Origin: an uncultured Synergistales bacterium
GTDB taxonomy: Bacteria; Synergistota; Synergistia; Synergistales; Aminobacteriaceae
Direction of reading: 5' to 3'
NCBI GenBank assembly: GCA_905233565.1
Contig: CAJOCL010000017.1
Span: 1-46,676, forward strand
DNA: 46,676 nucleotides
In this document: positions 4,936-44,973 of the stretch, piece by piece
Layout of the letters: the number at the start of each line of letters is the position of its first letter
How positions within the stretch are numbered: position 1 is the stretch's first letter
Position numbers and translations under genes: made by a program
Notes under the pieces: generated by a model
Database searches by the model: none
What the model saw: only the letters and a program-made list of their open reading frames with translations
What the model was told of the DNA's origin: nothing

Positions 4936-6408
4936 TTGTATATCATGAAAAAATCTATCATAACCGCTGTATTATGTACGGCAATTTTTATAACTCTCAC
5001 GGCTGCGCCCTCTTTTTCTGCAAGCGTCAGGGCGGAACGTAACACATATTTCATTGATGACGCTGAAGGACACGCATTAATTCAGGACGGCAAAAAACAA
5101 AAGGCGCGTGAAGAAGCAAGGCGGATGGCGTACCGTGACGCAATCGAAAAGGCTATGGAAATGTTCGCAGGCAACCCGGACTCTGAAATGAGGAATAAAG
5201 TTTTTGCCAGAGCCCAAAGCATGGTCAAGAATTTCAGGATTACAAGCGAGACCGTCAGCGGTGATACTCTTTTCATAACCGGTTCTTGTTCAGTCGGCGA
5301 GAGGGCATTCGACGGGGTTTTAGGGCCTGAAGTTATTTCGATGCTTGGGAATCCCCGTGTAATGATCGTTGTTGACGAGGAGTCGGGAAAAAATGCTTCG
5401 CTTGTTGAGAGTGAACTTTTGAGCATATTTGAGAAGGCCGGCTATCTTATTGTTGACAGGGATCAGGCACAGACGCTTCTAGCCCTCGACCCTAAAAAAG
5501 CCTTCAGCGATCCCGAACTTCTTGCGGGTGCTGCAAAGACGATCAGGGCAGATATTATCATAGTTGCGAGCGTCAGTTCAGGCGCAAGGCATACACAGCT
5601 TTACGGCGTGAACATGTATAAGCCCAGCGCGAGCGTAAAGCTCAAGGCAGTTTTGACAAAGACGGCTTATCAGATAAGTTCGTCGACAGTTTCAAAGGGT
5701 TCGGGGAAATGGGGCGGAAGTTCTTCGGCAGCCGGGCTTTTGAGGTCAGGATTAAAACAGGCAGCAGAAGAGATTATTTATAAGATTGCCTACAGAATGG
5801 CTTCAGCCGGTTCAGCACTCGGAGGGATTACGGTAAATATAAAACTTGCCGGAGCGTCTTTCAAGGATATTGAGAGCTTCACGGCTTATCTTAAAGAGAC
5901 TGGGCAGGTTTTTGAACGTTCTTACAGTCCAGAAATGTCGGAGATTGATTTAGTGTCGTCAAAGAACGCAAGAAATGTAGCATCATTGATTTCTGATTAT
6001 TCACTGCCGGGAGGGAATATTGAGATTGACGGCCTTACGGCTCAGACGGTCAGCGCAAAGGTGAAGCCGGCTGCCCCTAAAAATCCTGATGCCAAGCCGA
6101 TTCAGTATGTAGTGATTAATATTTTCCTTGATAAACTTGATGAGGATGACGCGCACAGAATCGAGTATGAATTGAGGAAGTTTGTCGGCACGGTTGCTCA
6201 GGTTCAGGGGGATTATCAGGATTCAAAACTCACTATGGAAGTAAAGTTCGTTCAGGATGCGGAAGGTGCAAAGAATGTCAGGGATATAGAGGCATTCTTG
6301 AAGAATGACATGAAGAGCAGGGGAATCGAGCTTTTAGTTGACAAGCCCGAAGGAAATTCAATAAAGGGAAGCAGGCCGGGCGGTATTCTTGACCGCGTCT
6401 GGTGGTAA
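4936..6408 (+). CDS. Exported FlgT/LPP20-like envelope protein, first gene of type VII locus
   Basis: 490 residues. The start is taken as TTG at 4936 because AAGGAG (4922-4927) sits 8 nt before it; the in-frame ATG at 4945 is 17 nt away. An N-terminal signal peptide (KKSIITAVLC to about ASA) indicates export. Residues 50-80 (AREEARRMAYRDAIEKAMEM) resemble the N-terminal domain of the flagellar assembly protein FlgT. The middle part (VMIVVDEE, ESELLSIFEKAGYLIVDRDQ) resembles the FlgT-M/CsgG-type fold. Two related alpha/beta units follow (about 295-350 and 375-465). No flagellar genes are nearby. It leads a co-directional run into the EssC-like ATPase, so a periplasmic or outer-membrane role in that system is inferred. 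Family assignment rests on motif resemblance only. Confidence 0.65.
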   Translation: MYIMKKSIITAVLCTAIFITLTAAPSFSASVRAERNTYFIDDAEGHALIQDGKKQKAREEARRMAYRDAIEKAMEMFAGNPDSEMRNKVFARAQSMVKNFRITSETVSGDTLFITGSCSVGERAFDGVLGPEVISMLGNPRVMIVVDEESGKNASLVESELLSIFEKAGYLIVDRDQAQTLLALDPKKAFSDPELLAGAAKTIRADIIIVASVSSGARHTQLYGVNMYKPSASVKLKAVLTKTAYQISSSTVSKGSGKWGGSSSAAGLLRSGLKQAAEEIIYKIAYRMASAGSALGGITVNIKLAGASFKDIESFTAYLKETGQVFERSYSPEMSEIDLVSSKNARNVASLISDYSLPGGNIEIDGLTAQTVSAKVKPAAPKNPDAKPIQYVVINIFLDKLDEDDAHRIEYELRKFVGTVAQVQGDYQDSKLTMEVKFVQDAEGAKNVRDIEAFLKNDMKSRGIELLVDKPEGNSIKGSRPGGILDRVWW

Positions 6409-6433
6409 ATTTAACAGGAGGGATTAAGATTTC

Positions 6434-7048
6434 ATGGATATTTTTACGGTTTTTACGATTTTTACGAAAAGAAGAATCATTGCTGCAGTGCTGCTTTTCA
6501 GCCTCGTCTTTACCGGCGGGGCTGCAGATGCGAAGATAAGGAGCAAACTTTCAAAAAGGTCAACAACGTCATCAAACTCTTCACATTCCGATTCAGTTTT
6601 GCCGAAGAGGGGAGATATAGCGGTTATTGTTGAGGGTGATGACGAACAGCATGTAAGGATAACGGAGACGAAAATTATTGATTCTCTGATAAATCACGGT
6701 TACAGGGTAGTTGACGAAAAGAAGATGAGGGCTGCGAAAGCTGCTGCGGTCAGGGCGCAGGCTCACCGGCTGGCGATGCAGGGGAATTACGAGGCAATAT
6801 TCAAGCTCAACGCGAGTTATTCATGTGCCGCGACGATAATTGCGAGGGTACAGGGAGGCCAGGCCGTTCAGAATCAGATCGGACTGTACACGGCTACGGC
6901 CTCAATTTCGCTCATGGCCGTAACTTCAAGGGGTACTAAGCTCGGGGGAAAATCATCTTACAGCAAGGAAGTCGGATTCACTGAGTATGAAGCTCTGATG
7001 AAGTGCATTGAGTCTGCTGTTGAGAGCGGAATGAAACAGATGTATTAA
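6434..7048 (+). CDS. Exported CsgG/FlgT-M-like small protein
   Basis: 204 residues, preceded by an AGGAGGG ribosome site (about 6415-6421). The N-terminal KRR plus hydrophobic segment (IIAAVLLFSLVFTGGAADA) is a likely signal peptide. The core (GDIAVIVEGDDEQHVRITE, IIDSLINHGYRVVDEKKM) repeats the strand-helix pattern of the middle domain of the preceding 490-residue protein, and it is followed by a beta-rich part (TATASISLMAV). It lies 25 bp after that gene and 13 bp before the EssC-like gene, so co-transcription is likely. A periplasmic partner of the secretion system is an inference from position. Confidence 0.6.
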   Translation: MDIFTVFTIFTKRRIIAAVLLFSLVFTGGAADAKIRSKLSKRSTTSSNSSHSDSVLPKRGDIAVIVEGDDEQHVRITETKIIDSLINHGYRVVDEKKMRAAKAAAVRAQAHRLAMQGNYEAIFKLNASYSCAATIIARVQGGQAVQNQIGLYTATASISLMAVTSRGTKLGGKSSYSKEVGFTEYEALMKCIESAVESGMKQMY

Positions 7049-7061
7049 AGAGGGCTGAGAT

Positions 7062-10000
7062 ATGGATTATCTTATTGCTGTTTACACCGGCAGGAAGATT
7101 TACACGCTTACGGTGAAGCCGGGAATAACTGCGACGATCGGCAGCGCTCAGAATGATAATGTATTTATTGACAGGCCGGAACTGAATGCGTCACATTTGG
7201 TTCTTGCCTGTGATGCCGGAGGGGTGAGGATTCTTTCAAAACAGCCTTTCAAGTTCGGAGATGATGAAGTTTCAAACAGGGTATTATCGGCAGGTGATGT
7301 TATACACGTAACTGCAAAGATTACGCTTGCAGTTTTTGAGGCGAAATGCAGGTTACATTCTGCGGTTCTGATAGAGAGTTTTGACGAAATCAAAATCGGA
7401 CGCTCATATAACAGTAACGATATTTGCCTGAAAGATCCCAATGTTTCGAGCCGTCATGCAGTCTTGAGAAAAATTAACGGGCTGTGGACGGTTTCGGACC
7501 TTCAGAGCCGCAACGGGACATTTGTCAACGGCGATCTTGCACAGGTTGATTCTGAGATTCCTGCGGAGAACGTGAATATTTTTATCTGCGGATATATTTT
7601 CTACGTTCAGAATAACATGCTCAGATTTACGAACATACCCGGAGATGTTGAATTTTCGCCGGAAATTGATGATGTTCTTGTTCCCATGCCCGCGAGGCAG
7701 AAAGCGTATCCGTTTTTTCAGCGTTCGCCGAGAATCAGGAACAGGGCGGAGAGGGCTGATTTTGATATATCTTCACCGCCCAATGCAGGTACGAAGCCTT
7801 CTATATCGTGGCTTACTGCTCTGATGCCTCCTGCTATGATGGTCGGGGTTATGGGGTTTGTTGCTGTAATGACGGGGAATTATAACATGCTTATGTATTC
7901 CCTTCCCATGTCTTTGATGTCCTTAGTTGTTACGGTTATAAATAACAGGAACAACATGAAAAAATGGATAAAGAATAACGGCCTTGCAATAGAAAAATAT
8001 TCAGAGTATTTAGCTGAGACTGACAGGGAAATAACGGACGCTGAAGGGGCGTTTATGTCTTCATTGTCATCGGCAAATCCGGGAGTTCTCGAATGTCTTT
8101 CGATTGCGCAGAACGTGAGCCGCAGACTTTGGGAACGGACGCCGAAGGACAGCGATTTTCTTAATGTAAGACTTGGAACGGGGAGCATTGACTCAAACGT
8201 AAAAATAAAACTTCCCAGCTCTCAGATGTCCGTTGAGGATAACCCGTTTATTAAACAGGCTCAGGAGATTCGGGACAGACATAGATTTTTGACTGGGATT
8301 CCGGTTTGTCATTCACTGACTGAATATCCCGTTACGGGACTTGCGGGGCGTCGTGATTCCGTTATGCGTACTGCATGGCGGATTATTATGGACATTGCTG
8401 CACATCATTCATATGATGACGTGAAAATAATGTGCGTCTATCCTGAAGAGGAGCGGTCTCAATGGGAGTGGCTGAGGTGGCTTCCGCATATCTGGGACAC
8501 GAAACACAAGAAGCGTTTTCTTGCATTCACGAAAGATGCTGCGCGTCCTATGCTCCGTGAGGCTGCGGAAACTATGAAGGTCAGGCGCAGGGATATTAAG
8601 CCGGGCAATAGAGATGTTCAGCCGGCCATGCCGTTTTATGTTCTTATTCTTGCTGACAGGACACTGACGGAGTCAAGCGGTGAATCTCTGCTTCCTGAAA
8701 GTGCCTCGCTTGGTTTTGCGGCTGTTTATGCTTACGGGGATATAGGCGCGCTGCCCGGAGAGTGCCAGAGCGTAATAACATGTGATGTCCCTGCGAAAAT
8801 CCAGAACACACAGCCTGACAGGGGCAGTGTTACGACTTCTTTTGTTCCAGATAAAATCAGCGTTAATATTCTTGATGATTTTGCGCGTTCCCTTGCTCCC
8901 GTTCATTTAATGTCAGCAGGCGGAGGCTCAAAAATGCCGTCAAGTATAACGTTCCTTCAGGGTTTCAATGCCAGGACGGTACAGGACCTTGATGTTATAG
9001 GGCGGTGGTCTTCAAGCCATTCTGAAAAGAGTTTGGCTGCACCGATCGGAATAAAAGAGAACGGAGATATTTTTGAGTTTGATGTTTTTGAAAAAGCTAT
9101 GGGGCCTCACGGTATCGCTGCAGGCACATCGGGAAGCGGAAAAAGTGAAATGCTGACAACGTGGCTGCTGTCTCTTGCGCTGAATTTTTCGCCTGACGAT
9201 GTTAATCTGGCTTTAATCGAGTTCAAGGGTAACGATCTGTCAAATATACTTCACGATCTCCCGCATATTGCAGGAATTGTAAGCAATTTGAATGACCCGT
9301 CAACAATTATTCGCGGCCTTAAATCGCTAAAAGGTGAAAAAGACAGGAGAATGAGGCTTTTTGAGCAGTCCGATTTTCTGTCGTCAAAATCAATTTTTGC
9401 ATATCAGAAATATCAGAAATCGCACCCGGAAGCCGGCCTTGAGCCGCTGCCGTATTTAATAATAGTAATTGACGAGTTTGCGGAACTTGTAACCCAATAT
9501 CCTGAATTTAACGATGAAATAGTATCAATTGCGAGGGTAGGCCGAAGCGTCGGAATGTATATGACTTTGACTATGCAGTCTCCGCAGGGTGTTGTCAAAG
9601 GTCAGGTATCTTCAAACACAAAGTTTAGGGTCTGCCTGAGAACTGCAACGGCATCAGAGAGCAAGGAAATTATAGGCACTGATGACGCGTTCAACATTTC
9701 AGCACCGGGACGGGCATATATTAAAGTCGGCAATAATGAAGTGTATGAACAGGTACAGACTTTTTACGCAAAAGCCCCGTACAGGCCTAATTCAGGTCAG
9801 AGAAGCGCGGTTGACGAAATAAAACTCGTTGAACTCAACGGAACGCGCAAAAAACCTGAGAATTACACAAAGACGGTCAGAGCTGCCAGAGACGAACAGA
9901 GCGAAGGAAACGTAATCGTCAAAAATATAATTGAGGAAGCAGAAGCACATCACGTAAAACATGCCAAACCCGTATGGACTGATCCGCTGCCTGAAATGCT

Positions 10001-11567
10001 TTATCTTGACGAACTTATTAAAGGCTATGAGGCTTTTGACCGTCAGACAAAGACATGGAACGGGAAAAATAAAGGGCTTGCCGTCATTGCGGGGCGTATT
10101 GATGCTCCGGAGGAACAGAGACAGTATCCTTTTGTCCTGGATTTCATGAAAAACGGACATCAGATTCTTTACGGTGCGCCGTCAACGGGAAAGACGAGCT
10201 TTTTGCAGACTGTAATACTTTCGGCGGCACTTTCATACACTCCTGAACAGGTTAATTTTATTATTCTTGATTACGGCAGTTTTATATTAAAAGTTTTTGA
10301 AACTCTTCCTCACTGCATAATTGCAGCAGATCCAACTGATGAAGAAAAAGTCAGGAAAGCCAATGAATTTTTGCGCAATGAAATTGCATCGAGAAGAAAA
10401 CTTTTCAGCGCGGAGGGAGTGGCCAATCTTGAGGCATACCGCGAGGCTGTCGGGAAGCCCGTACCTGCAATAATAGTAGTTGTTGACAACATAGCATCAC
10501 TGAGCAATCAAAATTCTGATTTAATGGACGTTTTGAATCAGACGGCGCGTGACGGCGGAGGCTTGGGGATTTATTTAATGATCAGTTCCGGCAACACGGG
10601 AGGCTTCATGTATAAAATATCACAGTACGTAAAGAGCAATCACACTCTTCAAATGACAGAAAAAACTGATTACAGGCCGCTTGTCGGAGGTGACGGGAGA
10701 ATGTATCCCGGCAATTATCCAGGACGCGGGCTGACGAAGGGCGCGCTGGAATATCAGACTGCTTTGTGTGTTGACGGGACAAGCGAAAACGACAGGAACA
10801 AAAAACTCAGGGTTCTTTGTTCTGAAATGGCTGAAACATGGACAGGGAAGAGCGCATCGCTTGAGGCTGCAGAGAGTGAGACATCAGCACCGATTCAGGC
10901 AGGGGAATTAACTTCAAGCGAAAACTCAGTCCAGATCGGCATGAAGAAGGGAACGCGCGAACCCGTAGAGTTTATTTTCAGCGATATGAACGGCTGTGTT
11001 ATTTCAGGCTCATACGGAGCAGGGAAGAGCAGTATTCTCGGAATGATAGCCAAAGCACTTGATAAGGATTCTGATACTGCGCTGTATATATACGAAGAAA
11101 AAACGTTCATTGAAAATTTATGCCCGAACGCTAAGACCGCTCATAAGCCAGAAGATGCCGATTCTTTCATTGCTGAACTTGCACAGGAATATGAAAAGCG
11201 TGACGAGGACAGCAAGGGGCGTATAGTGCTGTGTATTGATGATTTCTATAATTTCTATCAGGACATTACGCAGGAAAGTGCGGACATACTCGAGGCGATA
11301 GCGCGCGGAGGTTCTGAAAGAGGAATGTACATATATGTATCTGTCAGCTTAAAAGGTCTCGGACAATTAAGCAGCTGGGGCGTACCTCTTATGAAAGAGC
11401 TTCTTAACGGCGGAAACGCCGTAGCAGCCGGCGGAAGTCTTAGGGAGTATCTGGCTTTCAAAAATCTTCACCGTGAAGACGGTATTTTGTTCGGCAATCA
11501 TGAGGGCTGTTTAATACATGACGGAAAAGTTACCGTGCTGAGATTCGGGAAACCTGAAGGAGCGTAA
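7062..11567 (+). CDS. essC: EssC/YukB-like type VII secretion ATPase with FHA domains and three FtsK/SpoIIIE modules
   Basis: 1501 residues, the size of Firmicutes EssC. Two FHA-like domains come first; the second (about 95-180) has the phospho-threonine-binding signature GRSYNSND, SSRHAV and SRNGTFVNG. Two membrane segments follow (about 248-295, SWLTALMPPAMMVGVMGF). Three ATPase modules have Walker A motifs GTSGSGKS (from residue 688), GAPSTGKT (from 1038) and SYGAGKS (from about 1317). Their Walker B strands are LIIVIDEFAEL, AIIVVVDNIASL and RIVLCIDDFYNF. Only the first has a canonical Asp-Glu pair, so module 1 is probably the active motor. The family drives export of WXG100 proteins across the inner membrane, and their genes follow directly. 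Intact FHA residues plus the downstream kinase suggest phospho-control. Confidence 0.93.
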   Translation: MDYLIAVYTGRKIYTLTVKPGITATIGSAQNDNVFIDRPELNASHLVLACDAGGVRILSKQPFKFGDDEVSNRVLSAGDVIHVTAKITLAVFEAKCRLHSAVLIESFDEIKIGRSYNSNDICLKDPNVSSRHAVLRKINGLWTVSDLQSRNGTFVNGDLAQVDSEIPAENVNIFICGYIFYVQNNMLRFTNIPGDVEFSPEIDDVLVPMPARQKAYPFFQRSPRIRNRAERADFDISSPPNAGTKPSISWLTALMPPAMMVGVMGFVAVMTGNYNMLMYSLPMSLMSLVVTVINNRNNMKKWIKNNGLAIEKYSEYLAETDREITDAEGAFMSSLSSANPGVLECLSIAQNVSRRLWERTPKDSDFLNVRLGTGSIDSNVKIKLPSSQMSVEDNPFIKQAQEIRDRHRFLTGIPVCHSLTEYPVTGLAGRRDSVMRTAWRIIMDIAAHHSYDDVKIMCVYPEEERSQWEWLRWLPHIWDTKHKKRFLAFTKDAARPMLREAAETMKVRRRDIKPGNRDVQPAMPFYVLILADRTLTESSGESLLPESASLGFAAVYAYGDIGALPGECQSVITCDVPAKIQNTQPDRGSVTTSFVPDKISVNILDDFARSLAPVHLMSAGGGSKMPSSITFLQGFNARTVQDLDVIGRWSSSHSEKSLAAPIGIKENGDIFEFDVFEKAMGPHGIAAGTSGSGKSEMLTTWLLSLALNFSPDDVNLALIEFKGNDLSNILHDLPHIAGIVSNLNDPSTIIRGLKSLKGEKDRRMRLFEQSDFLSSKSIFAYQKYQKSHPEAGLEPLPYLIIVIDEFAELVTQYPEFNDEIVSIARVGRSVGMYMTLTMQSPQGVVKGQVSSNTKFRVCLRTATASESKEIIGTDDAFNISAPGRAYIKVGNNEVYEQVQTFYAKAPYRPNSGQRSAVDEIKLVELNGTRKKPENYTKTVRAARDEQSEGNVIVKNIIEEAEAHHVKHAKPVWTDPLPEMLYLDELIKGYEAFDRQTKTWNGKNKGLAVIAGRIDAPEEQRQYPFVLDFMKNGHQILYGAPSTGKTSFLQTVILSAALSYTPEQVNFIILDYGSFILKVFETLPHCIIAADPTDEEKVRKANEFLRNEIASRRKLFSAEGVANLEAYREAVGKPVPAIIVVVDNIASLSNQNSDLMDVLNQTARDGGGLGIYLMISSGNTGGFMYKISQYVKSNHTLQMTEKTDYRPLVGGDGRMYPGNYPGRGLTKGALEYQTALCVDGTSENDRNKKLRVLCSEMAETWTGKSASLEAAESETSAPIQAGELTSSENSVQIGMKKGTREPVEFIFSDMNGCVISGSYGAGKSSILGMIAKALDKDSDTALYIYEEKTFIENLCPNAKTAHKPEDADSFIAELAQEYEKRDEDSKGRIVLCIDDFYNFYQDITQESADILEAIARGGSERGMYIYVSVSLKGLGQLSSWGVPLMKELLNGGNAVAAGGSLREYLAFKNLHREDGILFGNHEGCLIHDGKVTVLRFGKPEGA

Positions 11568-11571
11568 AATT

Positions 11572-11835
11572 ATGAATGAACCTGAGACATTTATAGCAAC
11601 CGTTACGAATGATGAGCGCAGTTTTGAGCAGGATATGGAACTGCCTTCCGCTATGCCTGTATCTGAATTAAGCTCGCAGATCCTCATGATTCTCAAGGAC
11701 ATTCACGAGGATATTTTTTCGCAGTGGGTTTCATGCCGCCTTGAATGCAATAACAGGCTTCTGAAAAAGGATGATACATTGATAAAAGCAGGAGTTTTTG
11801 ACGGCAGCAGGATAATCGTACGTGAGGAGCGGTGA
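11572..11835 (+). CDS. esaB: YukD/EsaB-like ubiquitin-fold protein of the type VII system
   Basis: 87 residues, starting 4 nt after the EssC-like stop. The C-terminal half (LLKKDDTLIKAGVFDGSRIIVREE) has the YukD/EsaB pattern: a ubiquitin-like strand, a short helix and a final strand, without the diglycine tail of ubiquitin. The N-terminal strand pair (FIATVTNDERSFEQDMELP) fits the same fold. In Firmicutes type VIIb systems this small cytosolic protein is a conserved component encoded beside EssC. The translationally tight spacing supports an operon. Confidence 0.85.
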   Translation: MNEPETFIATVTNDERSFEQDMELPSAMPVSELSSQILMILKDIHEDIFSQWVSCRLECNNRLLKKDDTLIKAGVFDGSRIIVREER

Positions 11836-11888
11836 ATATTTATACGTAATATTCGCTATGCCATAGCAGGTAATTTTCGCGCAATATT

Positions 11889-11918
11889 TTGTAGCCTAAG
11901 TTATAGGACATGTATATA
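11889..11918 (+). promoter_or_regulatory. Possible internal promoter before the WXG100 genes
   Basis: TTGTAG (11889-11894) and TATATA (11913-11918, within TATATAAT) are separated by 18 bp in the 138-bp gap after the EsaB-like gene. The gap suggests separate transcription of the small secreted proteins. The -35 is weak. Confidence 0.35.
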
Positions 11919-11973
11919 ATAATCATCGTAGCAAGCAAGACAGGCAGAAAATAAAAAAGGAGGTGAAAAGTAA

Positions 11974-12267
11974 ATGCCGAAGATTAGATTAACATCAGAT
12001 GTACTCAAGCAGAGGGCCGGCGAAGTAAACCAGTGCATGGAAGATCAGCAGGAAATCATCAGGAAGGTCGCTCAGGTTATAGCAGACGTCGTCGCAGACT
12101 GGGAAGGCGAAGCCCAGAAAGGCTTCAGAAGTGCGTTTGACGAAGCAAGACCGGTATATGAAAAGTTCGCACCGGATCTCTCGAACTTCTCACAATTCCT
12201 GACCAATTACGCCAACACAATGGAATATCTCGATGTAGGCGGACGTGAGGAGATAACCAGCAGGTAA
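11974..12267 (+). CDS. WXG100 (ESAT-6-like) protein 1
   Basis: 97 residues, the canonical size. A central ADWEGEAQ turn carries the Trp-Xaa-Gly motif between two predicted amphipathic helices. A near-perfect AAGGAGGTGA ribosome site (11957-11966) lies 7 nt before the ATG, indicating strong expression. WXG100 proteins are small helical-hairpin substrates of type VII systems and usually form dimers. The C-terminal YLDVGGREE is a possible secretion signal, but the YxxxD/E signal is not clear-cut (Y-L-D-V-G). Confidence 0.93.
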   Translation: MPKIRLTSDVLKQRAGEVNQCMEDQQEIIRKVAQVIADVVADWEGEAQKGFRSAFDEARPVYEKFAPDLSNFSQFLTNYANTMEYLDVGGREEITSR

Positions 12268-12272
12268 TGAAG

Positions 12273-12330
12273 CGTACTTAGTAATTCAACGATACAAGTA
12301 CGTAAGAAATTCGGGGATTTGTCCCTGAAT
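12273..12330 (+). other. Two mRNA stem-loops between the WXG100 genes
   Basis: An inverted repeat CGTACTT/AAGTACG (12273-12279 with 12296-12302) is followed by a nine-pair stem ATTCGGGGA/TCCCTGAAT (12309-12317 with 12322-12330) with a four-base loop and one G-U pair. No T-run follows, so these look like transcript processing or stability elements rather than terminators. Confidence 0.5.
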
Positions 12331-12361
12331 GGTTAGTGAAAATGAAAAGAGGTGAAAATTA

Positions 12362-12658
12362 ATGCCCGTAATCAAATTAACGCCCGAGCTTCTCGAACAG
12401 GGAGCTGACAAGTTAGTAGAAGCAAACAACTTAAACGAGGACGTCATCCAGCGTCTGGATAATCTCATCAGTGGCCTTAACGCAGACTGGGAAGGTGACG
12501 CGTATAACGCCTTCAAGCAGAGCTACGATAGCAAACGTAAAACATTTGTGGAACTGTCTCAGCACATGGAGAAATTCGTGCTTTTCTTAAAGAAGTTTGC
12601 TGATGTCATGAGGCAGGAAGAAAAGCGGCAGGCTGATGCAGCAATAAACTTGGGCTAG
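12362..12658 (+). CDS. WXG100 (ESAT-6-like) protein 2
   Basis: 98 residues with the central motif ADWEGDAYNAF, flanked by helices rich in heptad-type hydrophobic residues (VEANNLNEDVIQRLDNLISG; TFVELSQHMEKFVLFLKKFA). An AGAGGTG ribosome site precedes the ATG. It shares MPxIxLTxxxLxQxA at its N-terminus with WXG100 protein 1, so the two are paralogues and plausible dimer partners. It is followed by a terminator hairpin at 12698-12720, so the pair may be made in excess of the downstream genes. Confidence 0.93.
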   Translation: MPVIKLTPELLEQGADKLVEANNLNEDVIQRLDNLISGLNADWEGDAYNAFKQSYDSKRKTFVELSQHMEKFVLFLKKFADVMRQEEKRQADAAINLG

Positions 12659-12697
12659 TAGGTTTTATTTGCTGACACGTAAAAACAACGGCGGGAG

Positions 12698-12720
12698 GCA
12701 GGAAATGTCTCCTGCTTTTT
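12698..12720 (+). terminator. Rho-independent terminator after the WXG100 pair
   Basis: GCAGGA (12698-12703) pairs with TCCTGC (12710-12715) around a six-base loop and is followed by TTTTT (12716-12720) and further A/T bases. Because the locus continues in the same direction, it probably attenuates rather than fully stops transcription. Confidence 0.7.
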
Positions 12721-12749
12721 ATTAATTAAAATTAATGGGAGAAAGATAT

Positions 12750-13184
12750 ATGTCAGATAAGAAATTTCTGCTCATAACGAAGAAGGAATTATTTTATTCG
12801 GCTGTTATGCTGAGAATTAGAAAACTTGTCAATGTTGTCTACGATTTCCCGGCAGACAAGCTCAAATTTGAAGCAGAACTCAGAGAAGCCCGCAAAACTT
12901 TACGCCGCAAAAACCTGCTTGAAGACACTCCCAGAGACGGCGTAAACATCAGTTTTTCGGTAAGCGTTTGTGTTTCTTTCTGTGCCAATCCGGACAGGTG
13001 CGAAGTGATAGACAGTTACGGTTATTATGCAACTGTATATCAGGCCTCAAAAATGTATATGCTCATGGAACATAAAGACGATGACCAGGATTTATTGGCT
13101 GTGGCATGGTTCACGGACAGAAAAATTTTAGACAGATATATTAATTCTCAGATTGAGAAGCGGAGAGGAGCTGTATTGAAGTGA
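12750..13184 (+). CDS. Unknown protein of the type VII locus
   Basis: 144 residues from the ATG at 12750, chosen because GGGAGAAA (12738-12745) lies just upstream; an in-frame ATG at 12735 has no ribosome site. No signal peptide or membrane segment is visible. The composition is mixed alpha/beta, with an N-terminal KKFLLITKKELFYSAVMLRIR, a charged helix (FEAELREARKTLRRKN) and a C-terminal helix (RKILDRYINSQIEKRRGA). It lies between canonical and divergent WXG100 genes, and its stop overlaps the next start codon. I do not recognise the family. A cytosolic chaperone or adaptor for the small substrates would fit the position, but that is inference only. Confidence 0.75.
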   Translation: MSDKKFLLITKKELFYSAVMLRIRKLVNVVYDFPADKLKFEAELREARKTLRRKNLLEDTPRDGVNISFSVSVCVSFCANPDRCEVIDSYGYYATVYQASKMYMLMEHKDDDQDLLAVAWFTDRKILDRYINSQIEKRRGAVLK

Positions 13185-13495
13185 GCGGACTCAGAGACTC
13201 AAGCGGTACGATCGTAATTGATGAGGCTGAAGTTGAAGAAGATATTCGCCGCATTCAGCAGGCACGCGGGAAATTAGACGAAGCCAAGCAGTATTTAGAC
13301 CCAGCGGCAATAGACAGTGAAAGGATGCGCGGACTTACAGGCGATGCGCTGCAAGAACAATTTACGAAAATGAATAAAGATCTGGCTGAATGGGAAAATT
13401 TCTGCGAGGGGACAATAAGTTACATCCGCAGGGTTGTGGCCGAGTACCAGAGAATCGACCGCGAATACGCCGCAAAAGCTAAGGAGCTGAAGTAA
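13181..13495 (+). CDS. Divergent WXG100-size helical protein (LTG in place of WxG)
   Basis: 104 residues. The GTG start (13181-13183) overlaps the previous stop, with GAGAGGAG just upstream, so translational coupling is likely. Two long predicted helices flank a central RGLTGDALQEQF turn, which occupies the place of the WxG motif. The first helix is DEAEVEEDIRRIQQARGKLDE and the second runs to the charged C-terminus (EYAAKAKELK). Size, helical-hairpin pattern and position argue for the WXG100 superfamily, but Trp is missing. A non-secreted partner or diverged substrate is possible. Confidence 0.7.
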   Translation: MSGLRDSSGTIVIDEAEVEEDIRRIQQARGKLDEAKQYLDPAAIDSERMRGLTGDALQEQFTKMNKDLAEWENFCEGTISYIRRVVAEYQRIDREYAAKAKELK

Positions 13496-13498
13496 TCA

Positions 13499-13798
13499 AT
13501 GCCCGCAACAATTATTAATGTAAGTGCAGTTGAAGAAAGCACGGCCCGCGCCCTCAGATTAGTATCTGAGCAGCAGGACACCCTGAACACTATAGACAGA
13601 ATAGTAAATAATATGGAAGACTCTTGGGAATCTGAGACACAAAGGGCTTATGTTGAAAGTTTCAGGACTTCACGGGACAGAATAGAACGCTTCAACGAAT
13701 CAGTTATTCAATCCGTTGAAAACATGAGAAGTTTTGTAACTGACTGCGTGAACGCCGATGAGCTTACGGCCAGAGAGATTCTTAACGTAAGCTGGTAA
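13499..13798 (+). CDS. Divergent WXG100-like protein (WES motif)
   Basis: 99 residues. The central turn reads EDSWESETQRAYVESF: the Trp of the WXG motif is kept but the Gly is Ser. Both flanking helices are present (TARALRLVSEQQDTLNTIDR; RDRIERFNESVIQSVENMRS). The ATG is 3 bp after the preceding stop, and AAGGAG lies within the end of that gene. A member of the WXG100 superfamily by architecture; substrate or heterodimer partner is inferred. Confidence 0.8.
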   Translation: MPATIINVSAVEESTARALRLVSEQQDTLNTIDRIVNNMEDSWESETQRAYVESFRTSRDRIERFNESVIQSVENMRSFVTDCVNADELTAREILNVSW

Positions 13799-13816
13799 AC
13801 GAAAGGAGAATATATT

Positions 13817-14119
13817 ATGCCGAAAATTTTAGCCGTAACTGAAGAAATGCAGAACCGTGCGGCAAATATAGGGAACAACGCCGATAACCTTTTGAACAGC
13901 CAGAATGCAGTTACAGATATATTTCAGAATATGGGGCGTGATTTCAGCGGCCGGATTCCATCACTTATGACTGAAAAAATGATAGCTATGGAAGAAGTAT
14001 ATCAGGGAATAAATGCTACACTGAACAATTACAGGGATTTTCTGATTGATGCCGCGAGAAATTACGAATGGAATGATTCAGAAGCGTCCAGATGGACAAG
14101 ATCATTAACACAGAGGTGA
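13817..14119 (+). CDS. Divergent WXG100-like protein (FSG motif)
   Basis: 100 residues, preceded by AAAGGAG. The N-terminus MPKILAVTEEMQNRA resembles that of WXG100 protein 1. The turn between the two helices reads GRDFSGRIPSLM, with Phe in place of Trp before Ser-Gly. The C-terminus (YEWNDSEASRWTRSL) carries an extra Trp. It belongs to the run of small helical-hairpin genes downstream of the ATPase and is probably a diverged WXG100 protein. Confidence 0.75.
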   Translation: MPKILAVTEEMQNRAANIGNNADNLLNSQNAVTDIFQNMGRDFSGRIPSLMTEKMIAMEEVYQGINATLNNYRDFLIDAARNYEWNDSEASRWTRSLTQR

Positions 14120-14126
14120 TTAAAAC

Positions 14127-15356
14127 ATGCCGGCAAATTTATTGATTTTTGATGCCGATTACGTTTCAGAATTGACCGCGAAAATGAATACGGCCTGTGA
14201 ACTTATGGCCGAAGCGGTTTCGAGCCTGAAAAGTGCAAGCAATCATGAAAATTGGAAGTGCAAGGAACGCACGAAAATTTCGGAGAGCTTTGGGGAATTA
14301 AATACAAAACTTGGCCGTCTTGACAACGGAGTTAATGAAGTAACAAGGATTTTGGGCGGAAGCGTCAGCCGGTTTGCATCGCTTGAAAGCCAGTACGATT
14401 CTCAGGCCAATAATTTATCCGATGAGCTTACTAATAATTACGGTTTCAGGGCAGCAGTCAGAACAGGAGACGGCACCGGCTCAGGAACAGAGGCCGCAAG
14501 CGTTGCGGGTTCAACGGCTGCAGGCGCAGGAGCAGCAGGACAGGCGGTCAGCTCAGCAGGTGATTCAAGCCGTTCAGACAAAAACACAGGGACAAGAACA
14601 GGGACAAGAACAGGAAACGGGGCAGCCGCTGCAGCAGCTTTCCGCATTCCGGGAAGGGGCAGGCCGTCTGATAATAATACGAATACAAGCGCAGGTACTG
14701 ATGCAAGAATGGGAGGCAGTTCAATGAATGTAAATCTTCCTGTAACTCATATTCCTGATAATCCCGGCGCAGCAGCAAGAGGCGTAAAAGATACTCAGGA
14801 CATAGCCAACGCGGCATTAAACAGCGTAGTAAACACAATGACTGAAGCACTCGGAGCAAATTCAGGGGATCACGGCTCAGGTTTAGCGGCTAGACTTGCA
14901 GACACGTATAATGCAGGACGAAGCGTATTTGAATCATGTTCCGTAATACTTGCGAACCCTTCACAGCCTCATACTTCAGAGCGTTTAACAATGGCGGCAG
15001 GGCTCGTTAAACTTGCGGAAAATTCAGGAGCCGTTAAAAATACGGGCAATAATTCAAATTTAGGATTAGGGGATTTGTCCCGTAATGCCGGGCTTATATC
15101 TTCAGCATTGCAGGATGACAGCGAAACCTCAGAATTTAAGAGCCTGTTGGAAGCTATAACGAATCAGAGCAGTAATTCAGGAAGTTCAGGCGGTGAAGAA
15201 CTGTCATTTTTCGATATGATAATTGAGGAGTTAAAGAAAGTATTTTCCGAAAACGGTAACCGCGGCGGAAGCTCTTCAAGTTCAAGGACATCTCTGGCTT
15301 CGTCATCGCCCGTCATGGAATTTCTCGGAAGTTTCGTAATGGATCAGGCGGTGTAA
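14127..15356 (+). CDS. Large WXG-like protein with Ser/Gly/Ala-rich tail, possible type VII substrate
   Basis: 409 residues. The first about 110 resemble a WXG/LXG-type helical domain: an N-terminal helix (SELTAKMNTACELMAEAVSS), a NWKCKERTKI turn, and a second helix (LGRLDNGVNEVTRILGGSVS). Residues about 115-210 are low complexity (Ala, Gly, Ser, Thr; GTRTGTRTG). The C-terminal half is helical and polar with SNSGSSGGEE and GNRGGSSSSS linkers. No signal peptide or membrane segment is seen. It starts 7 bp after the previous gene. An exported effector or structural component is plausible. No toxin domain is recognisable, and no obvious immunity gene follows. Confidence 0.75.
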   Translation: MPANLLIFDADYVSELTAKMNTACELMAEAVSSLKSASNHENWKCKERTKISESFGELNTKLGRLDNGVNEVTRILGGSVSRFASLESQYDSQANNLSDELTNNYGFRAAVRTGDGTGSGTEAASVAGSTAAGAGAAGQAVSSAGDSSRSDKNTGTRTGTRTGNGAAAAAAFRIPGRGRPSDNNTNTSAGTDARMGGSSMNVNLPVTHIPDNPGAAARGVKDTQDIANAALNSVVNTMTEALGANSGDHGSGLAARLADTYNAGRSVFESCSVILANPSQPHTSERLTMAAGLVKLAENSGAVKNTGNNSNLGLGDLSRNAGLISSALQDDSETSEFKSLLEAITNQSSNSGSSGGEELSFFDMIIEELKKVFSENGNRGGSSSSSRTSLASSSPVMEFLGSFVMDQAV

Positions 15357-15361
15357 AAAAC

Positions 15362-16159
15362 ATGTCGGTAAAAATAAAGTTTGCAGCACGTTCAGAAGTC
15401 GGGAATGTTAGGACGAACAACGAGGATAATTTATACTGCAACGGAATAATAATGTCAGAATCTGACCGGGAGAGGCCGTTTTTCATTAACGGAATGGCGG
15501 AATCTCCCGCAATTTTCGCTGTCTGTGACGGTATGGGAGGGGAAGACTGCGGGGAAGTTGCTTCACTTACGGCCGTTCAGAGCCTGCAGGAACATTCAGG
15601 AAAAATACTCGGCAATCTTCTTGATTCTGATAAAGAAGTCAGCGATTATGTAATTTCGGCAAATTCAAAACTTCTTGACATTATGAACGCTCAGGGAATA
15701 AGGACAGGCGCAACGCTCGTACTTTCAGTTATAGGGGGCAGCTCATTCAGGATATATAATCTTGGCGACTCAAGAGGCTTCAGGATTGAGGGAGGCAGAC
15801 TGCTCAGGGTAACGGAAGATCACACTGTTGCTGAGGAGAAAATGAGAATGGGATTCATAAGCGCGTCTCAGGCAGAAAAAAGCCCCGAACGTCATATATT
15901 AACCCGTTATCTCGGCGATAGTGACGAGTACGGAGTAATCCCGGACGCAAGCAGAGAATACGGCTTTGACACTCATAGCGGCGGGCTTCTTTGTTCTGAC
16001 GGACTGACTGATATGCTTACGTTTCAGGAAATTTCGCGGATAATGCGCGCTGCAAAAGACCCTTCTGAAGCCGTGAACATGCTCGTTGATTCTGCCCTTG
16101 AACACGGCGGTAAAGATAACGTAACATGTTTAGTCTTTGAGATTTCGGAAGGAGCATAA
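15362..16159 (+). CDS. PP2C-family Ser/Thr phosphatase
   Basis: 265 residues with the PP2C metal-binding motifs: RTNNEDN (Asp22), VCDGMGG (Asp56), GATLV, NLGDSRGFR, SDGLTDML and GGKDNVTCLV. All acidic ligands appear intact, so it should be active with Mn/Mg. The N-terminus (ARSEVGNVRTNNED) is typical of the bacterial PppA/PrpC type. It sits between the WXG-like genes and a Ser/Thr kinase (3 bp spacing to the kinase). The natural reading is reversal of kinase phosphorylation of a protein recognised by the FHA domain of the ATPase, which is inferred from gene order. Confidence 0.93.
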   Translation: MSVKIKFAARSEVGNVRTNNEDNLYCNGIIMSESDRERPFFINGMAESPAIFAVCDGMGGEDCGEVASLTAVQSLQEHSGKILGNLLDSDKEVSDYVISANSKLLDIMNAQGIRTGATLVLSVIGGSSFRIYNLGDSRGFRIEGGRLLRVTEDHTVAEEKMRMGFISASQAEKSPERHILTRYLGDSDEYGVIPDASREYGFDTHSGGLLCSDGLTDMLTFQEISRIMRAAKDPSEAVNMLVDSALEHGGKDNVTCLVFEISEGA

Positions 16160-16162
16160 TCA

Positions 16163-18094
16163 ATGAGCGACATTAAGAAATACGAGCCTTTGTGGGGATC
16201 ATGGTACGTTGATGACAGCCCGCTCGGGGAGGGGTCATTCGGGAAGGTCTACAAAGTTCATAAAGAAGAGTTCGGGCGCAGGTATTACGCCGCCGTAAAA
16301 ATAATATCACTGCCGCAAAGCCAGGAAGACCTTAACAGAATAAGAAGTGAATTTAATGACGATGAGCCGTCAGTAAGAAGCTACTTCAAAGGAATGGTTG
16401 ACGATATAGTGCAGGAAATTGACCTGATGAGCATTTTCAGGGGAAATTCAAACGTTGTATCGCTTGAAGATCATGAAGTAGTACCGAATGAAGGCTCTGA
16501 AGGCTGGGACTCCATAGGCTGGGATATTTTAATACGTATGGAGCTGTTGAAAACTCTTTCAGCGTACATAACTGAGCGTCCGCTGACGACGGCTGATGTT
16601 ATGAGGGTCGGAATAGACATATCACACGCGCTTGAACTCTGTGCAATGAAAAACGTTATTCACAGAGATATTAAGCCGGACAATATATTTGTCTCTGAAT
16701 ATGGAGATTTCAAACTTGGAGATTTCGGGGTAGCCAGACACATTGCGCGTGCAAATTCTGAAATGTCAAAGAAGGGAACGCCGACTTATATGGCTCCCGA
16801 AGTATTTAATAATCAGGATTACGGGCCGGGCGTTGATTTATATTCGCTTGGAATCGTCATGTACCGTTACCTGAATAAAAACAGGGTGCCTTTTATGCCG
16901 CCTTTTCCTGAGCCGATAAAGCCCGAAGACAGGGAAAAAGCATTATTGCGCAGGATGAGGGGCGATGAGCCTCTGCCGAACATTCCTGACATTCCGCCCG
17001 AATTAAACGATTTTGTCCTGAAAGCCTGTTCTTTTAACCCTGAAGACAGATTCAAAGATGCTGCGGAGTTCAGAACTGAACTTGAAAGAATAGCAGGTGT
17101 GAAGTCAAAAATTCCCGTTCAGGAAGTTACCCGCGAACCGGCAAGGCAGGAAATCAGAAGACCCCGTGCAATGCGTCATGAAGAAGAGGAGAGGACTACG
17201 GGAGTTTTTATGCTTAAACGTGATGCGACAGTAGCTCAGTCAAGAGATGACCGCCCCAAAGTTCCTGAAAGTATTACTAACATTATTTCAGGAATCGGCG
17301 CGGTATGTTCGGGGATTTTGACGCTGCTGTGCCTGTTCAGCGGTAAAATCGGAGATGTTTTCCTGTCAATGCCGCTATATGCGATGTGCGTTGCGTTGTG
17401 TGTGCTTAATTTCCGTCTTTCAGCCTTAAATCTCATAACTATTGCGTGGCTCACGTGCTATCTTGCTTTCAGTGCGCTGATAAATTTTTCAGCTTTCAGT
17501 TATTCACTGCTTGTTCTGCTGCTGGGTATAATGTCAGTTGAAGCATTGAGATCCAAAAGCTGGAAATACAGATATATTCTCAGTATTACGCTGGTTTCGT
17601 GGGCTTTGGTATCCGGCATATTGACATATGTTACAGTCAGCGGATCTGATGTCATGGCTTACCGTGAACTGCATTCGGCAGCGTATGGAATACCGGCGAT
17701 GATGCTGATAACGGCAGCTCTTGTCATGTTCCCGCACAGGGACAAGGGGGAGATTTTAGCGGGCCTTATGGCTCTTGAGCTTATGCCTTTTATAGCCTTC
17801 ATAGTGTTTATATTGAGCGCGTTAATCGGTTTTGATCTGCCTGTTCTTTTCAACATTGCGAAGGCGAATTTAACAGGTTTTACGCTTGAAAAATTTTCCT
17901 GGTGGCGTTACGGGCGTATATTCGGGGTTATTCTGCAGACAGTTTCGGCTGAATGCCTGCTGCTTGTTGCGGCTGCGAGAATGATTCCGGGAGATTTTCT
18001 TGGAATGCTTGAAAACAGGGAAAAAGCAGTTATGATTTTCTTTGCGAGCATAATAATTATTGCTGCCGGAGTGCTTTTTGTTGCGTTAATCTAA
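16163..18094 (+). CDS. Membrane-bound eukaryotic-type Ser/Thr protein kinase
   Basis: 643 residues. The kinase domain (about 10-315) has the glycine loop LGEGSFGKVY (21-30), ATP lysine Lys46, catalytic loop HRDIKPDN (His167), DFG (Asp187) and KGTPTYMAPE, all intact. A basic linker (EPARQEIRRPRAMRHEEEE) leads to about nine hydrophobic segments (about 370-643), an unusual polytopic tail where many bacterial kinases have one membrane helix and an external sensor. It starts 3 bp after the PP2C phosphatase and is followed by a terminator. Together with the FHA-bearing ATPase this resembles a Thr-phosphorylation switch. The substrates are not known. Confidence 0.93.
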   Translation: MSDIKKYEPLWGSWYVDDSPLGEGSFGKVYKVHKEEFGRRYYAAVKIISLPQSQEDLNRIRSEFNDDEPSVRSYFKGMVDDIVQEIDLMSIFRGNSNVVSLEDHEVVPNEGSEGWDSIGWDILIRMELLKTLSAYITERPLTTADVMRVGIDISHALELCAMKNVIHRDIKPDNIFVSEYGDFKLGDFGVARHIARANSEMSKKGTPTYMAPEVFNNQDYGPGVDLYSLGIVMYRYLNKNRVPFMPPFPEPIKPEDREKALLRRMRGDEPLPNIPDIPPELNDFVLKACSFNPEDRFKDAAEFRTELERIAGVKSKIPVQEVTREPARQEIRRPRAMRHEEEERTTGVFMLKRDATVAQSRDDRPKVPESITNIISGIGAVCSGILTLLCLFSGKIGDVFLSMPLYAMCVALCVLNFRLSALNLITIAWLTCYLAFSALINFSAFSYSLLVLLLGIMSVEALRSKSWKYRYILSITLVSWALVSGILTYVTVSGSDVMAYRELHSAAYGIPAMMLITAALVMFPHRDKGEILAGLMALELMPFIAFIVFILSALIGFDLPVLFNIAKANLTGFTLEKFSWWRYGRIFGVILQTVSAECLLLVAAARMIPGDFLGMLENREKAVMIFFASIIIIAAGVLFVALI

Positions 18095-18101
18095 AAATAA
18101 G

Positions 18102-18131
18102 CCCTGCGGAAATTTCAAACGCAGGGTTTTT
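18102..18131 (+). terminator. Rho-independent terminator ending the type VII operon
   Basis: CCCTGCG (18102-18108) pairs with CGCAGGG (18120-18126), followed by a run of five T. It lies 8 bp after the kinase stop and separates the secretion operon from the CsgG-like pair. Confidence 0.8.
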
Positions 18132-18200
18132 CAACATAGTATTTAATTATGTATGCTAGAATTAATTTATATTCTAAAATCATAGGGGGTAAAGGTAAAA

Positions 18201-18821
18201 ATGCGTACTATTTCAAAATTATTATTGATTCTGACGGCTTTAACGGTACTTACAGGCACGGCGTGTGCGCTGCCCAGACTTGCGGTAAGACAGTTTGAGG
18301 ACAGGACGCAGGAGAAAGATGCACCTGCTTCTGCCGTAATGGATATGATGGTTACGGAACTGAACAAGGCAAAAGTGTTTGACCTTATGGAACGAGAGAG
18401 ATTTGACTATGTTGCGGACGAAATAAAGCTCAGCCAGTCAGGTTTAGTCGATCCGTCTATGGTTTTAGAGGTTGGGAAAATTCAGAGTGCGCAATATTCG
18501 ATGACGGGGGCAATAACCCTTTATTACTACAATGAAAAGGCCAGCGGATTTGTTCTGCCTGTGATAGGCAGTGCAGCTATAGCAAAGACTGCATATGTTC
18601 TTCTTGAGATTCGTATTATCGACAATACTACTGGAAAAATCATATATTCATCGGAAAAACTTGGAAGTTCGCGCCAGGATTCATCGGGAAGTCTTGGAGG
18701 CTACAAGGGATTTTTTATCGGCGGATATAAAAGGGTGTACGGAGGAATACTTGCGTCGGCAACACGTGATTCAGTTATGAAGCATGTTGAGGCTATAAAA
18801 GCGATACACTGGGAAGAATAA
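18201..18821 (+). CDS. CsgG-family exported protein 1
   Basis: 206 residues. A signal peptide (RTISKLLLILTALTVLTGTACA) precedes the CsgG-type core: LAVRQFEDRT, MMVTELNKAKVFDLMERERFD, LSQSGLVDPSMVLEVGKIQSAQYSMTGAITLY and RIIDNTTGKIIYSSEK. The Cys near the cleavage point (LTGTAC) is a poor lipobox. An AGGGGGT site (18184-18190) precedes the ATG. CsgG is the outer-membrane curli export channel; shorter relatives occur in many envelope systems. It is transcribed with the next CsgG-like gene directly behind the type VII operon, so a periplasmic or outer-membrane role in the same system is plausible but unproven. Confidence 0.8.
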   Translation: MRTISKLLLILTALTVLTGTACALPRLAVRQFEDRTQEKDAPASAVMDMMVTELNKAKVFDLMERERFDYVADEIKLSQSGLVDPSMVLEVGKIQSAQYSMTGAITLYYYNEKASGFVLPVIGSAAIAKTAYVLLEIRIIDNTTGKIIYSSEKLGSSRQDSSGSLGGYKGFFIGGYKRVYGGILASATRDSVMKHVEAIKAIHWEE

Positions 18822-18832
18822 ATATAATCAAC

Positions 18833-19780
18833 GTGAAAATGAAAAAAATACTTCTTTCATTCTGCTTAATTATGTCTTTATGTGCTGTAAGTTCAGAAGC
18901 TGCAGAAAATGATAATATTCGTCTCGGTGTTATGAAATTCTTGTCAAGAACAGACGGGGTAAGCGAACAGCAGGCCGCCGCAATCGGTGATATTTTTGCG
19001 CGTATTCTTACAAATTCAAGATCACTTATCATTGTTGAACGGGACAGGTTTGACGAATTAGCAAGAGAACATCAGCTTACACAGTCGGGAAGTTTCAAGG
19101 ACAATGAGATAATCGAACTTGGTAAATTAATGAGCTGTAATTATATGCTTATAGGATCGGTTACGAATCTTGAACGCAAAGTTTCAGAGTCTGATTTCTG
19201 GATAGTCAGCGAGACGCGTCAGGAAATTACTGCGACAATAGATGTCAGGGTAGTTGATGTTACGACGAGCAAAGTAATAATGTCATTTTCTGAGAGCGGA
19301 AGTTCAGCACGAAAGGGGGAAGGCTTTAACTTTTACGGCATAAAGACCGATAAGGGGAAAAGTTTCAAGGGAATTGAAGAGTCTGCAATAGCTGAGGCCG
19401 TATTCAGGACAAGTTTCAAAATCCGTGAAAAACTTGCGGGAGAACGTATTCAGGTTGCGAATGTTTCTTCAAAAGCACTAACGCTGAATGCCGGGAAAAA
19501 CTGGGGAGTAAGCGATGGTGTTTTGTTCGGTGTTTATTCAGAAGGAAGGGAAGAATTTAATCTCGATGGTACATCATTGGGACGAAAATTAACCCTTCTT
19601 GCAATCGTGAAAGTTACGGATGCGCAGAATGAATTTAGTTATGCTCAAATTGTTAAAAACGGCGGTACGGCTTCAAGCATCCGTAAAGGTAATAAACTTG
19701 AACCGCTCACTAAGAAAGAGGCAGATGATCTAATAAAAAAGAAAGTTTTTTCAGGGAAAAAGAGCGGTAAGAAAAATTAA
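18833..19780 (+). CDS. CsgG-family exported protein 2
   Basis: 315 residues from GTG 18833 (or 313 from ATG 18839; neither has a clear ribosome site). The signal peptide is KKILLSFCLIMSLCAVSSEA. The core repeats that of the preceding gene: RLGVMKFLSRTDG, IFARILTNSRSLIIVERDRFD, LTQSGSFKDNEIIELGKLMSCNYMLIGSVTNL and DVRVVDVTTSKVIMSFSE. A C-terminal extension (about 205-315) adds a beta-rich part (NVSSKALTLNAGKNWGVSDG) and a Lys-rich tail. It lies 11 bp after its paralogue; the two probably work together in the envelope. Confidence 0.8.
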   Translation: MKMKKILLSFCLIMSLCAVSSEAAENDNIRLGVMKFLSRTDGVSEQQAAAIGDIFARILTNSRSLIIVERDRFDELAREHQLTQSGSFKDNEIIELGKLMSCNYMLIGSVTNLERKVSESDFWIVSETRQEITATIDVRVVDVTTSKVIMSFSESGSSARKGEGFNFYGIKTDKGKSFKGIEESAIAEAVFRTSFKIREKLAGERIQVANVSSKALTLNAGKNWGVSDGVLFGVYSEGREEFNLDGTSLGRKLTLLAIVKVTDAQNEFSYAQIVKNGGTASSIRKGNKLEPLTKKEADDLIKKKVFSGKKSGKKN

Positions 19781-21181: not shown

Positions 21182-21553
21182 TCATTGTAATTCCTCACGG
21201 TAAATTAAATTATATTGATTTCGCATCGTGACAAACTTTGTCCAGCCATGACGCTCAACGATATTTTGAAGTCTCTCAAACTGCCATGCGTCCATTGTGC
21301 AAGCCCCTATATAACGAGCCTTTCCGGATTTAACAACATCGTGAAAAGCTTCCATGATTTCTTCCATAGGCGTGAACGGGTCTAACCTGTGAATTTGATA
21401 TAAATCAACATAATCAAGTCCGAGACGCTGAAGACTGTATTTTAGCTCGCTATCGTACGAATATTTCAATAGGACTGCAAATGAGGTCTTTTTTTGCCGT
21501 AAGCAATAACGACATTTGAAGCTGAGCATGAAGGAATTTCTGTTACGCCGCAT
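21182..21553 (-). pseudogene. Aldo/keto reductase fragment
   Basis: Of 123 codons, the last about 90 resemble the central part of an aldo/keto reductase: SLQRLGLDYVDLYQIHRLD, EEIMEAFHDVVKSGKARYIG and NQYNLIYRE. The first about 33 residues (MRRNRNSFMLSFKCRYC) do not match, the catalytic Asp-Tyr-Lys N-terminal part is missing, and it stops at YREELQ before the rest of the barrel. Both ends are therefore lost. It is not a copy of the complete reductase at 36255, which belongs to a different subgroup. Confidence 0.75.
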
Positions 21554-31279: not shown

Positions 31280-31291
31280 TGCGCCTCCAAA

Positions 31292-44849: not shown

Positions 44850-44973
44850 GATTATTGCTCTCCCTTCAAAAATCAATAAAATGATTTTAAGTCGTTAATT
44901 TTTAGGAATGAATTTTTACATTTGACAACGCAACATCACATTTTTTAACGATAAAATTCATGGAGGCTTTAAT

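Follow-up and report, generated by a model that had tools for sequence, protein, structure and literature searches.

A candidate diderm type VII secretion locus linked to a CsgG/FlgT-type envelope module in the Synergistota

The window analysed here, a 46,676-nucleotide stretch of contig CAJOCL010000017.1, belongs to the genome of an uncultured member of the Synergistota (2.0 Mb, 96.5% complete) whose near-identical relatives are mostly metagenome-assembled genomes (MAGs) from rumen and gut. Positions 4936-19780 carry a block of 15 genes, all of them + strand and spaced by -4 to 138 bp, with mostly clear ribosome-binding sites and reading frames that are open throughout. Judged from sequence and gene distribution, this block probably encodes a type VII (T7) secretion system of a diderm bacterium with a recruited envelope module of CsgG- and FlgT-like proteins. 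A preliminary description had recognised one co-directional block of EssC, YukD, WXG100 and FlgT/CsgG genes; that block is present and includes three members unmentioned there, namely H149, a PP2C-type phosphatase and a Ser/Thr kinase. The two FlgT/CsgG-like exported proteins described before the core and the two CsgG-family proteins described after it are likewise in place, CsgG1 and CsgG2 scoring above the family cut-off and the model of FlgT490 matching FlgT. In the order of the window, the genes and one further feature are as follows.

4936..6408, + strand: FlgT490, exported protein with an FlgT-like N domain, a CsgG/TolB-N-like middle domain and two C-terminal alpha/beta domains
6434..7048, + strand: Ex204, exported protein of no named family, with a weak profile likeness to the FlgT490 middle domain
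7062..11567, + strand: EssC/TsxC ATPase with N-terminal FHA and FtsK/SpoIIIE domains; TIGR03928 (NCBI EssC equivalog) 934.5 bits, cut-off 778.4
11572..11835, + strand: YukD/EsaB, ubiquitin-like; PF08817 31.1 bits, cut-off 27
11974..12267, + strand: W1, WXG100 protein (WEG motif); PF06013 45.8 bits, TIGR03930 53.7 bits (cut-off 44.9)
12362..12658, + strand: W2, WXG100 protein (WEG motif); PF06013 40.6 bits
12690..12716, + strand: terminator-like stem-loop with a T-run in the W2-H149 gap (pattern match)
12750..13184, + strand: H149, no signal peptide; listed open reading frame start at 12735, the internal ATG at 12750 being the better fit to homologues
13181..13495, + strand: W3, WXG100-like helical protein; PF06013 E=0.022, position conserved in relatives
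13499..13798, + strand: W4, WXG100-like protein (WES); PF06013 E=7e-5
13817..14119, + strand: W5, WXG100-like protein; PF06013 E=0.002, C-terminal CHAP domain in some homologues
14127..15356, + strand: W6, putative substrate of 409 aa with a helical N-terminus, a low-complexity linker and a C-terminus without named domain
15362..16159, + strand: PP2C-type phosphatase; PF00481 49 bits, metal-binding motifs intact
16163..18094, + strand: Ser/Thr kinase; PF00069 134.7 bits, HRD, DFG and APE intact, polytopic C-terminal membrane part
18201..18821, + strand: CsgG1, minimal CsgG-family exported protein; PF03783 81 bits, cut-off 20.8
18833..19780, + strand: CsgG2, CsgG-family domain and C-terminal region; PF03783 72 bits, cut-off 20.8

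Both hallmarks of type VII secretion are encoded here: an EssC/EccC-type FtsK/SpoIIIE ATPase, and WXG100 proteins within the same cluster (W1 and W2). Besides exceeding the equivalog cut-off, EssC matches the solved structures of YukB (E=3e-107) and EccC5 (E=5e-61), and mean column identity across 14 EssC homologues is 61%. The earlier count of six WXG100-like genes is fair as a likeness only, since W3 to W5 match weakly and W6 has no Pfam match, which leaves W1 and W2 above the PF06013 cut-off of 27.3 bits; W6 is nevertheless a conserved block member among related loci.

Counting the window's own genome, 22 Synergistota genomes from two families carry EssC homologues of 45-83% identity; the weakest EssC match, in G005 (E=4e-21, 31%), was left out of the T7 loci. 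The neighbourhoods of these homologues were mapped for homologues of every window gene. In relatives, the usual order is FlgT490-Ex204-CsgG1-CsgG2-EssC-YukD-W1-W2-H149-W3-W4-W5-W6-PP2C-kinase, and the placement of the CsgG pair after the kinase, as in the window, recurs in no other locus mapped. FlgT490 and Ex204 lie just upstream of EssC in all 16 loci with enough upstream sequence (16/16, two families), and of the 20 T7 loci that have upstream sequence at all, 17 contain CsgG1. By comparison, module genes were found in none of 20 clostridial EssC loci, for which about 8 kb to either side was covered as far as the contig reached (Fisher p=1e-10). The CsgG/FlgT genes thus co-occur with the ATPase in related genomes, a pattern on which the preliminary description had made its proposal depend. 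Adjoining the T7 kinase of one locus (L048:16227-19700) is a gene for a 1157-aa protein with a CsgG domain and ankyrin repeats.

The same description had recognised no EsaA, EssA or EssB, and this absence is borne out genome-wide. EssB/YukC (PF10140) scored above cut-off in none of 185 Synergistota genomes, EssA (PF10661) was found in 0/185 and EsaA (TIGR03929) in none of the 22 EssC-positive genomes, with Bacillus subtilis as a positive control in each case. No classical system is therefore completed by genes elsewhere, and the earlier proposal stands on this point. Its claim of a diderm host also holds. The window host is a diderm: BamA/Omp85 (PF01103) was detected in 16 of 16 Synergistota genomes (the window genome and 15 others) and in none of six clostridial genomes, all six EssC-bearing. 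BamA was used as the diderm marker because LptD (PF04453), found in 0/20 genomes and, as a control, only in two proteobacteria, was uninformative.

Homologues of Ex204 occur in 95 of the 185 Synergistota genomes, and at 20 Ex204 sites away from EssC the module genes are again found together, in whole or in part. A stand-alone FlgT490-Ex204-(CsgG1)-CsgG2 arrangement is widespread in EssC-less Synergistota (L066-L085, e.g. L068:8549-13118), often with a further exported protein of ~290 aa encoded upstream. Since the same module stands alone in many genomes without EssC, its distribution identifies FlgT490-Ex204-CsgG as a resident Synergistota envelope module that appears to have been recruited to the T7 locus; for the same reason, the CsgG/FlgT genes are not peculiar to the T7 system. 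Of the suggestion that the flanking CsgG-like proteins are the missing envelope part, the conserved essC linkage stands and the exclusiveness does not, and a route through the envelope is what we infer from that linkage. In the Ex204 tree, one clade (SH-aLRT, a likelihood-ratio branch support, 98) unites ten T7-linked copies from the window's genus and excludes stand-alone copies from that genus. The T7-linkage label changes 5 times on this tree, compared with 13 in shuffles, which leaves room for a few independent gains or losses of the linkage. The window's CsgG1 clusters with the T7-linked copies of G049 and G060 (support 99).

Three termite-gut MAGs labelled clostridial or Bacillota carry an EssC that falls inside the Synergistota clade, and the notion of an EssC clade restricted to Synergistota was dropped for that reason. 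CsgG had no match in those three genomes, nor in a fourth with a more distant EssC. Only one of these contigs includes flanking sequence (L098/L143): the genes beside its EssC include none of the module, and its kinase carries fused SLH and Ig-like (Big_2) domains. The contrast hints at an exchange of envelope parts, with mis-binning as an alternative; for two truncated termite-gut contigs, horizontal transfer and mis-binning are indistinguishable.

FlgT490 and Ex204 both have hydrophobic N-termini of signal-peptide type. FlgT490 matches Pfam FlgT_N below the cut-off (E=0.0027), and the best Foldseek matches of its AlphaFold2 model (predicted local distance difference test score, pLDDT, 76; predicted template modelling score 0.44) are FlgT (3w1e) and the LPHT ring (8z5n), both at E about 7e-10 and involving the N and middle domains. 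This likeness is to the FlgT of the polar flagellar H-ring (with FlgO and FlgP), from which FlgT490 differs in its two extra C-terminal alpha/beta domains and its essC linkage. Domain searches gave no family match for Ex204; profile-profile comparison gave a weak match to the middle domain of FlgT490 (probability 61%), and no match of either Ex204 or FlgT490 to CsgG1. The CsgG1 model (pLDDT 74.6) best matches E. coli CsgG (4uv2, E=7e-10), followed by PelC and FlgT, and VIA-align yields a tie between PelC (Z 13.3, root-mean-square deviation 2.1 over 119 residues) and CsgG 6lqh (Z 12.8, root-mean-square deviation 4.4 over 157 residues). Structure matches to TolB, LptE and ribosomal eL22 were set aside as common folds. 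CsgG2 is related to CsgG1 (hhalign 99.7%) and matches CsgG in the PDB (E=8e-5). In the window's genus, both hairpin regions of CsgG1 are within a few residues of their length in E. coli CsgG.

Structure prediction, which had been suggested as a check on the preliminary description, thus favours an FlgT-like fold for the N and middle domains of the 490-residue protein and a CsgG fold for the 206-residue CsgG1; what the CsgG1 model backs is that fold rather than a pore. CsgG1 may form a wide ring or pore, and a periplasmic ring is equally compatible with the model. That CsgG1 itself is the outer-membrane pore seems to us a serious possibility, somewhat short of an even chance.

H149 is restricted to EssC-positive genomes within the Synergistota (17/22, compared with 0/163), and searches of Pfam, NCBIfam and PDB sequences gave no convincing match for it. 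It is weakly homologous to proteins encoded directly after EssC in clostridial T7 loci (hhalign 90.5%), and is likely a system-specific adaptor or chaperone. We infer that W5 and W6 are substrates, for which H149 would be the adaptor. Among related proteins with a WXG-type N-terminus (WXG-N), a W5 homologue in L050 (1268-2167) carries a CHAP domain (E=8e-13), and a W6 relative in L042 (5841-6947) carries a phage tail lysozyme domain (E=7e-30); neither enzyme domain is found in W5 or W6 of the window. Secretion by the Staphylococcus aureus system of subtype T7SSb requires the CHAP hydrolase EssH (PMC13059805), so wall opening is one possible role for the WXG-N hydrolases, and attack on neighbours is another. 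The H149-W3-W4-W5-(W6) cassette occurs twice in G068 and largely twice in G152 (loci L045 and L058).

The FHA domain of EssC retains a phosphothreonine-binding signature (G113, R114, S129, H132, N151 and G152) that is invariant in 14 homologues, a signature that T7SSb EssC lacks (PMC11217815). The kinase and the PP2C phosphatase each score above their Pfam cut-offs. Together with the intact catalytic motifs of the kinase and the intact metal-binding motifs of the PP2C phosphatase, the FHA signature suggests a phospho-switch, as in the subtypes T7SSc-T7SSj and in type VI secretion systems (T6SS). In the threonine-phosphorylation pathway of T6SS, the PpkA kinase, the PppA PP2C phosphatase and Fha are encoded in one secretion locus, as are their counterparts in the window. 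The window block differs from T6SS in containing no T6SS structural genes and in carrying the FHA domain on the ATPase.

Among known type VII systems, the closest comparison is with T7SSc-T7SSj, which are known to include kinase, phosphatase and FHA proteins and whose described hosts are all Bacillota or Actinomycetota, none with CsgG/FlgT (Garrett, Higginson and Palmer 2024, PMC11217815). Shared with these subtypes are EssC/TsxC, WXG100 (TsxA), a YukD-like protein (TsxB), the kinase (TsxD), the PPM phosphatase (TsxF), the lack of EssA/EssB/EsaA and, with several of them, FHA domains on the ATPase. On the other hand, the window kinase has a polytopic membrane part at its C-terminus but no recognised ectodomain, and no Ig-rich TsxI or other subtype-specific envelope gene lies within 4936-19780. 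The Ess/Yuk system of Staphylococcus and Bacillus (T7SSb) resembles the window in EssC (above the NCBI equivalog cut-off), YukD and WXG100, whereas the window has an active-type kinase in place of the T7SSb pseudokinase, has no EssA, EssB or EsaA, and belongs to a diderm. A 2023 review mentions WXG100 and FtsK genes in a few Gram-negative bacteria, unconfirmed (PMC10765036), and a recent survey of T7 variants is limited to Gram-positive bacteria (PMC11217815). In a full-text search of the non-subscription literature, CsgG and type VII secretion appeared together in two papers, each with only one passing mention of either, and nothing was found on WXG100 in Synergistota. Based on sequence comparison, the engine appears to be of type VII and its CsgG/FlgT envelope outfit new for type VII, which would make the locus a diderm variant. 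How type VII substrates cross an outer membrane has yet to be settled even for mycobacteria; a T7 system in a classical outer-membrane bacterium, together with a conserved four-gene envelope candidate, makes such passage testable.

In the mechanism we propose, EssC would carry dimers of the WXG100 type, and longer proteins with a WXG N-terminus, through the inner membrane, and H149 would act as an adaptor for this export. The kinase would phosphorylate a target, the FHA domain of EssC would read the phosphorylation and the PP2C phosphatase would reverse it, providing a switch of assembly or activity. FlgT490, Ex204, CsgG1 and CsgG2 may build a stack of periplasmic and outer-membrane rings that serves as periplasmic conduit or anchor, with CsgG1 the most promising candidate for the ring or pore at the outer-membrane end. 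We consider it probable, though well short of certain, that a diderm type VII secretion system with a recruited CsgG/FlgT module is encoded here, and the module is likely to be functionally coupled to the T7 core. The fuller version is a complete trans-envelope system: a CsgG-type ring lacking the constriction loop would form a wide opening in the outer membrane through which folded WXG100 dimers and WXG-linked wall hydrolases leave, with threonine phosphorylation as the gate. It is offered tentatively, and we hold about one part of belief in it to two of doubt.

Several observations weigh against this interpretation. In G083 and G142 the CsgG pair does not adjoin essC, CsgG1 lying on another contig, and in G094 CsgG1 is not beside EssC. 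CsgG1 resembles the curli channel in its Pfam score, its fold and the length of its hairpin regions; aligned with E. coli CsgG, however, it has a signal peptide without lipobox, lacks the constriction loop (C-loop), the region being 8 residues shorter, and lacks the C-terminal helix, and the block contains no CsgE, CsgF or curlin. The second hairpin has a pLDDT <50 in the monomer model, which the non-barrel proteins PelC and FlgT also match. Ex204 is present in 73 of the 163 Synergistota genomes without EssC, so the module has a separate role of its own. Flagellin is among the matches listed for the EssC-positive genomes (n=22), apart from exceptions where it is unlisted; being common in these genomes, it leaves room for a flagellar role of the module.

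The absent lipobox, the PelC-like rings among the matches of CsgG1 and the resemblance of FlgT490 to the periplasmic H-ring protein FlgT would all suit a system that exports to the periplasm only, in which the WXG-N hydrolases would work on the wall of the producing cell itself while the CsgG/FlgT proteins serve as periplasmic anchors or envelope reinforcement, with no outer-membrane step. The CHAP and lysozyme domains that WXG-N proteins carry in relatives point the same way. Yet in the window's genus CsgG1 retains the length of both CsgG membrane-hairpin regions, and four ring-type genes are a large outfit for mere anchoring; we regard this alternative as unlikely, though worth keeping in view. 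The FlgT/Ex204/CsgG genes could, alternatively, form an independent envelope or flagellar module (FlgT/FlgO/FlgP-like) that is a mere neighbour of essC, perhaps co-regulated with it. Its stand-alone occurrence in many Synergistota, FlgT as the closest fold of FlgT490 and the frequency of flagellin speak for such independence. Flagellin, found in 130/185 Synergistota genomes, does not closely track Ex204, which is strong in G028 and G036, both without a flagellin match. Moreover, the linkage to essC in every informative locus of two families, the separate clade of T7-linked copies in the window's genus and the coexistence of T7-linked and separate copies in G046, G049, G053, G060 and G143 argue against a mere neighbour, which we consider quite improbable. 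Finally, that the locus is a non-functional or degenerate relic is very improbable. Stop codons in the EssC matches of G079, G082 and G071 speak for it, though all three are draft assemblies; the open frames and intact catalytic motifs of the window and the mean column identity of EssC given above speak against it.

The stem-loop between W2 and H149 may be an attenuator or an operon split point, although terminator-like sites in the region are about as many as in shuffled sequence. Rfam and tRNA scans of the window gave no match. Divergent from the T7 block, positions 1-4728 (- strand) encode a leucine-rich-repeat protein of at least 1576 aa with EF-hand-like units. Downstream, a truncated aldo/keto reductase gene at 21182-21553 (- strand) is probably a pseudogene, an adjacent pair of radical SAM genes lies among short open reading frames at 29870-32155 (- strand), and 41226-44876 (- strand) encodes a 1216-aa protein with von Willebrand A and lipase-like domains.

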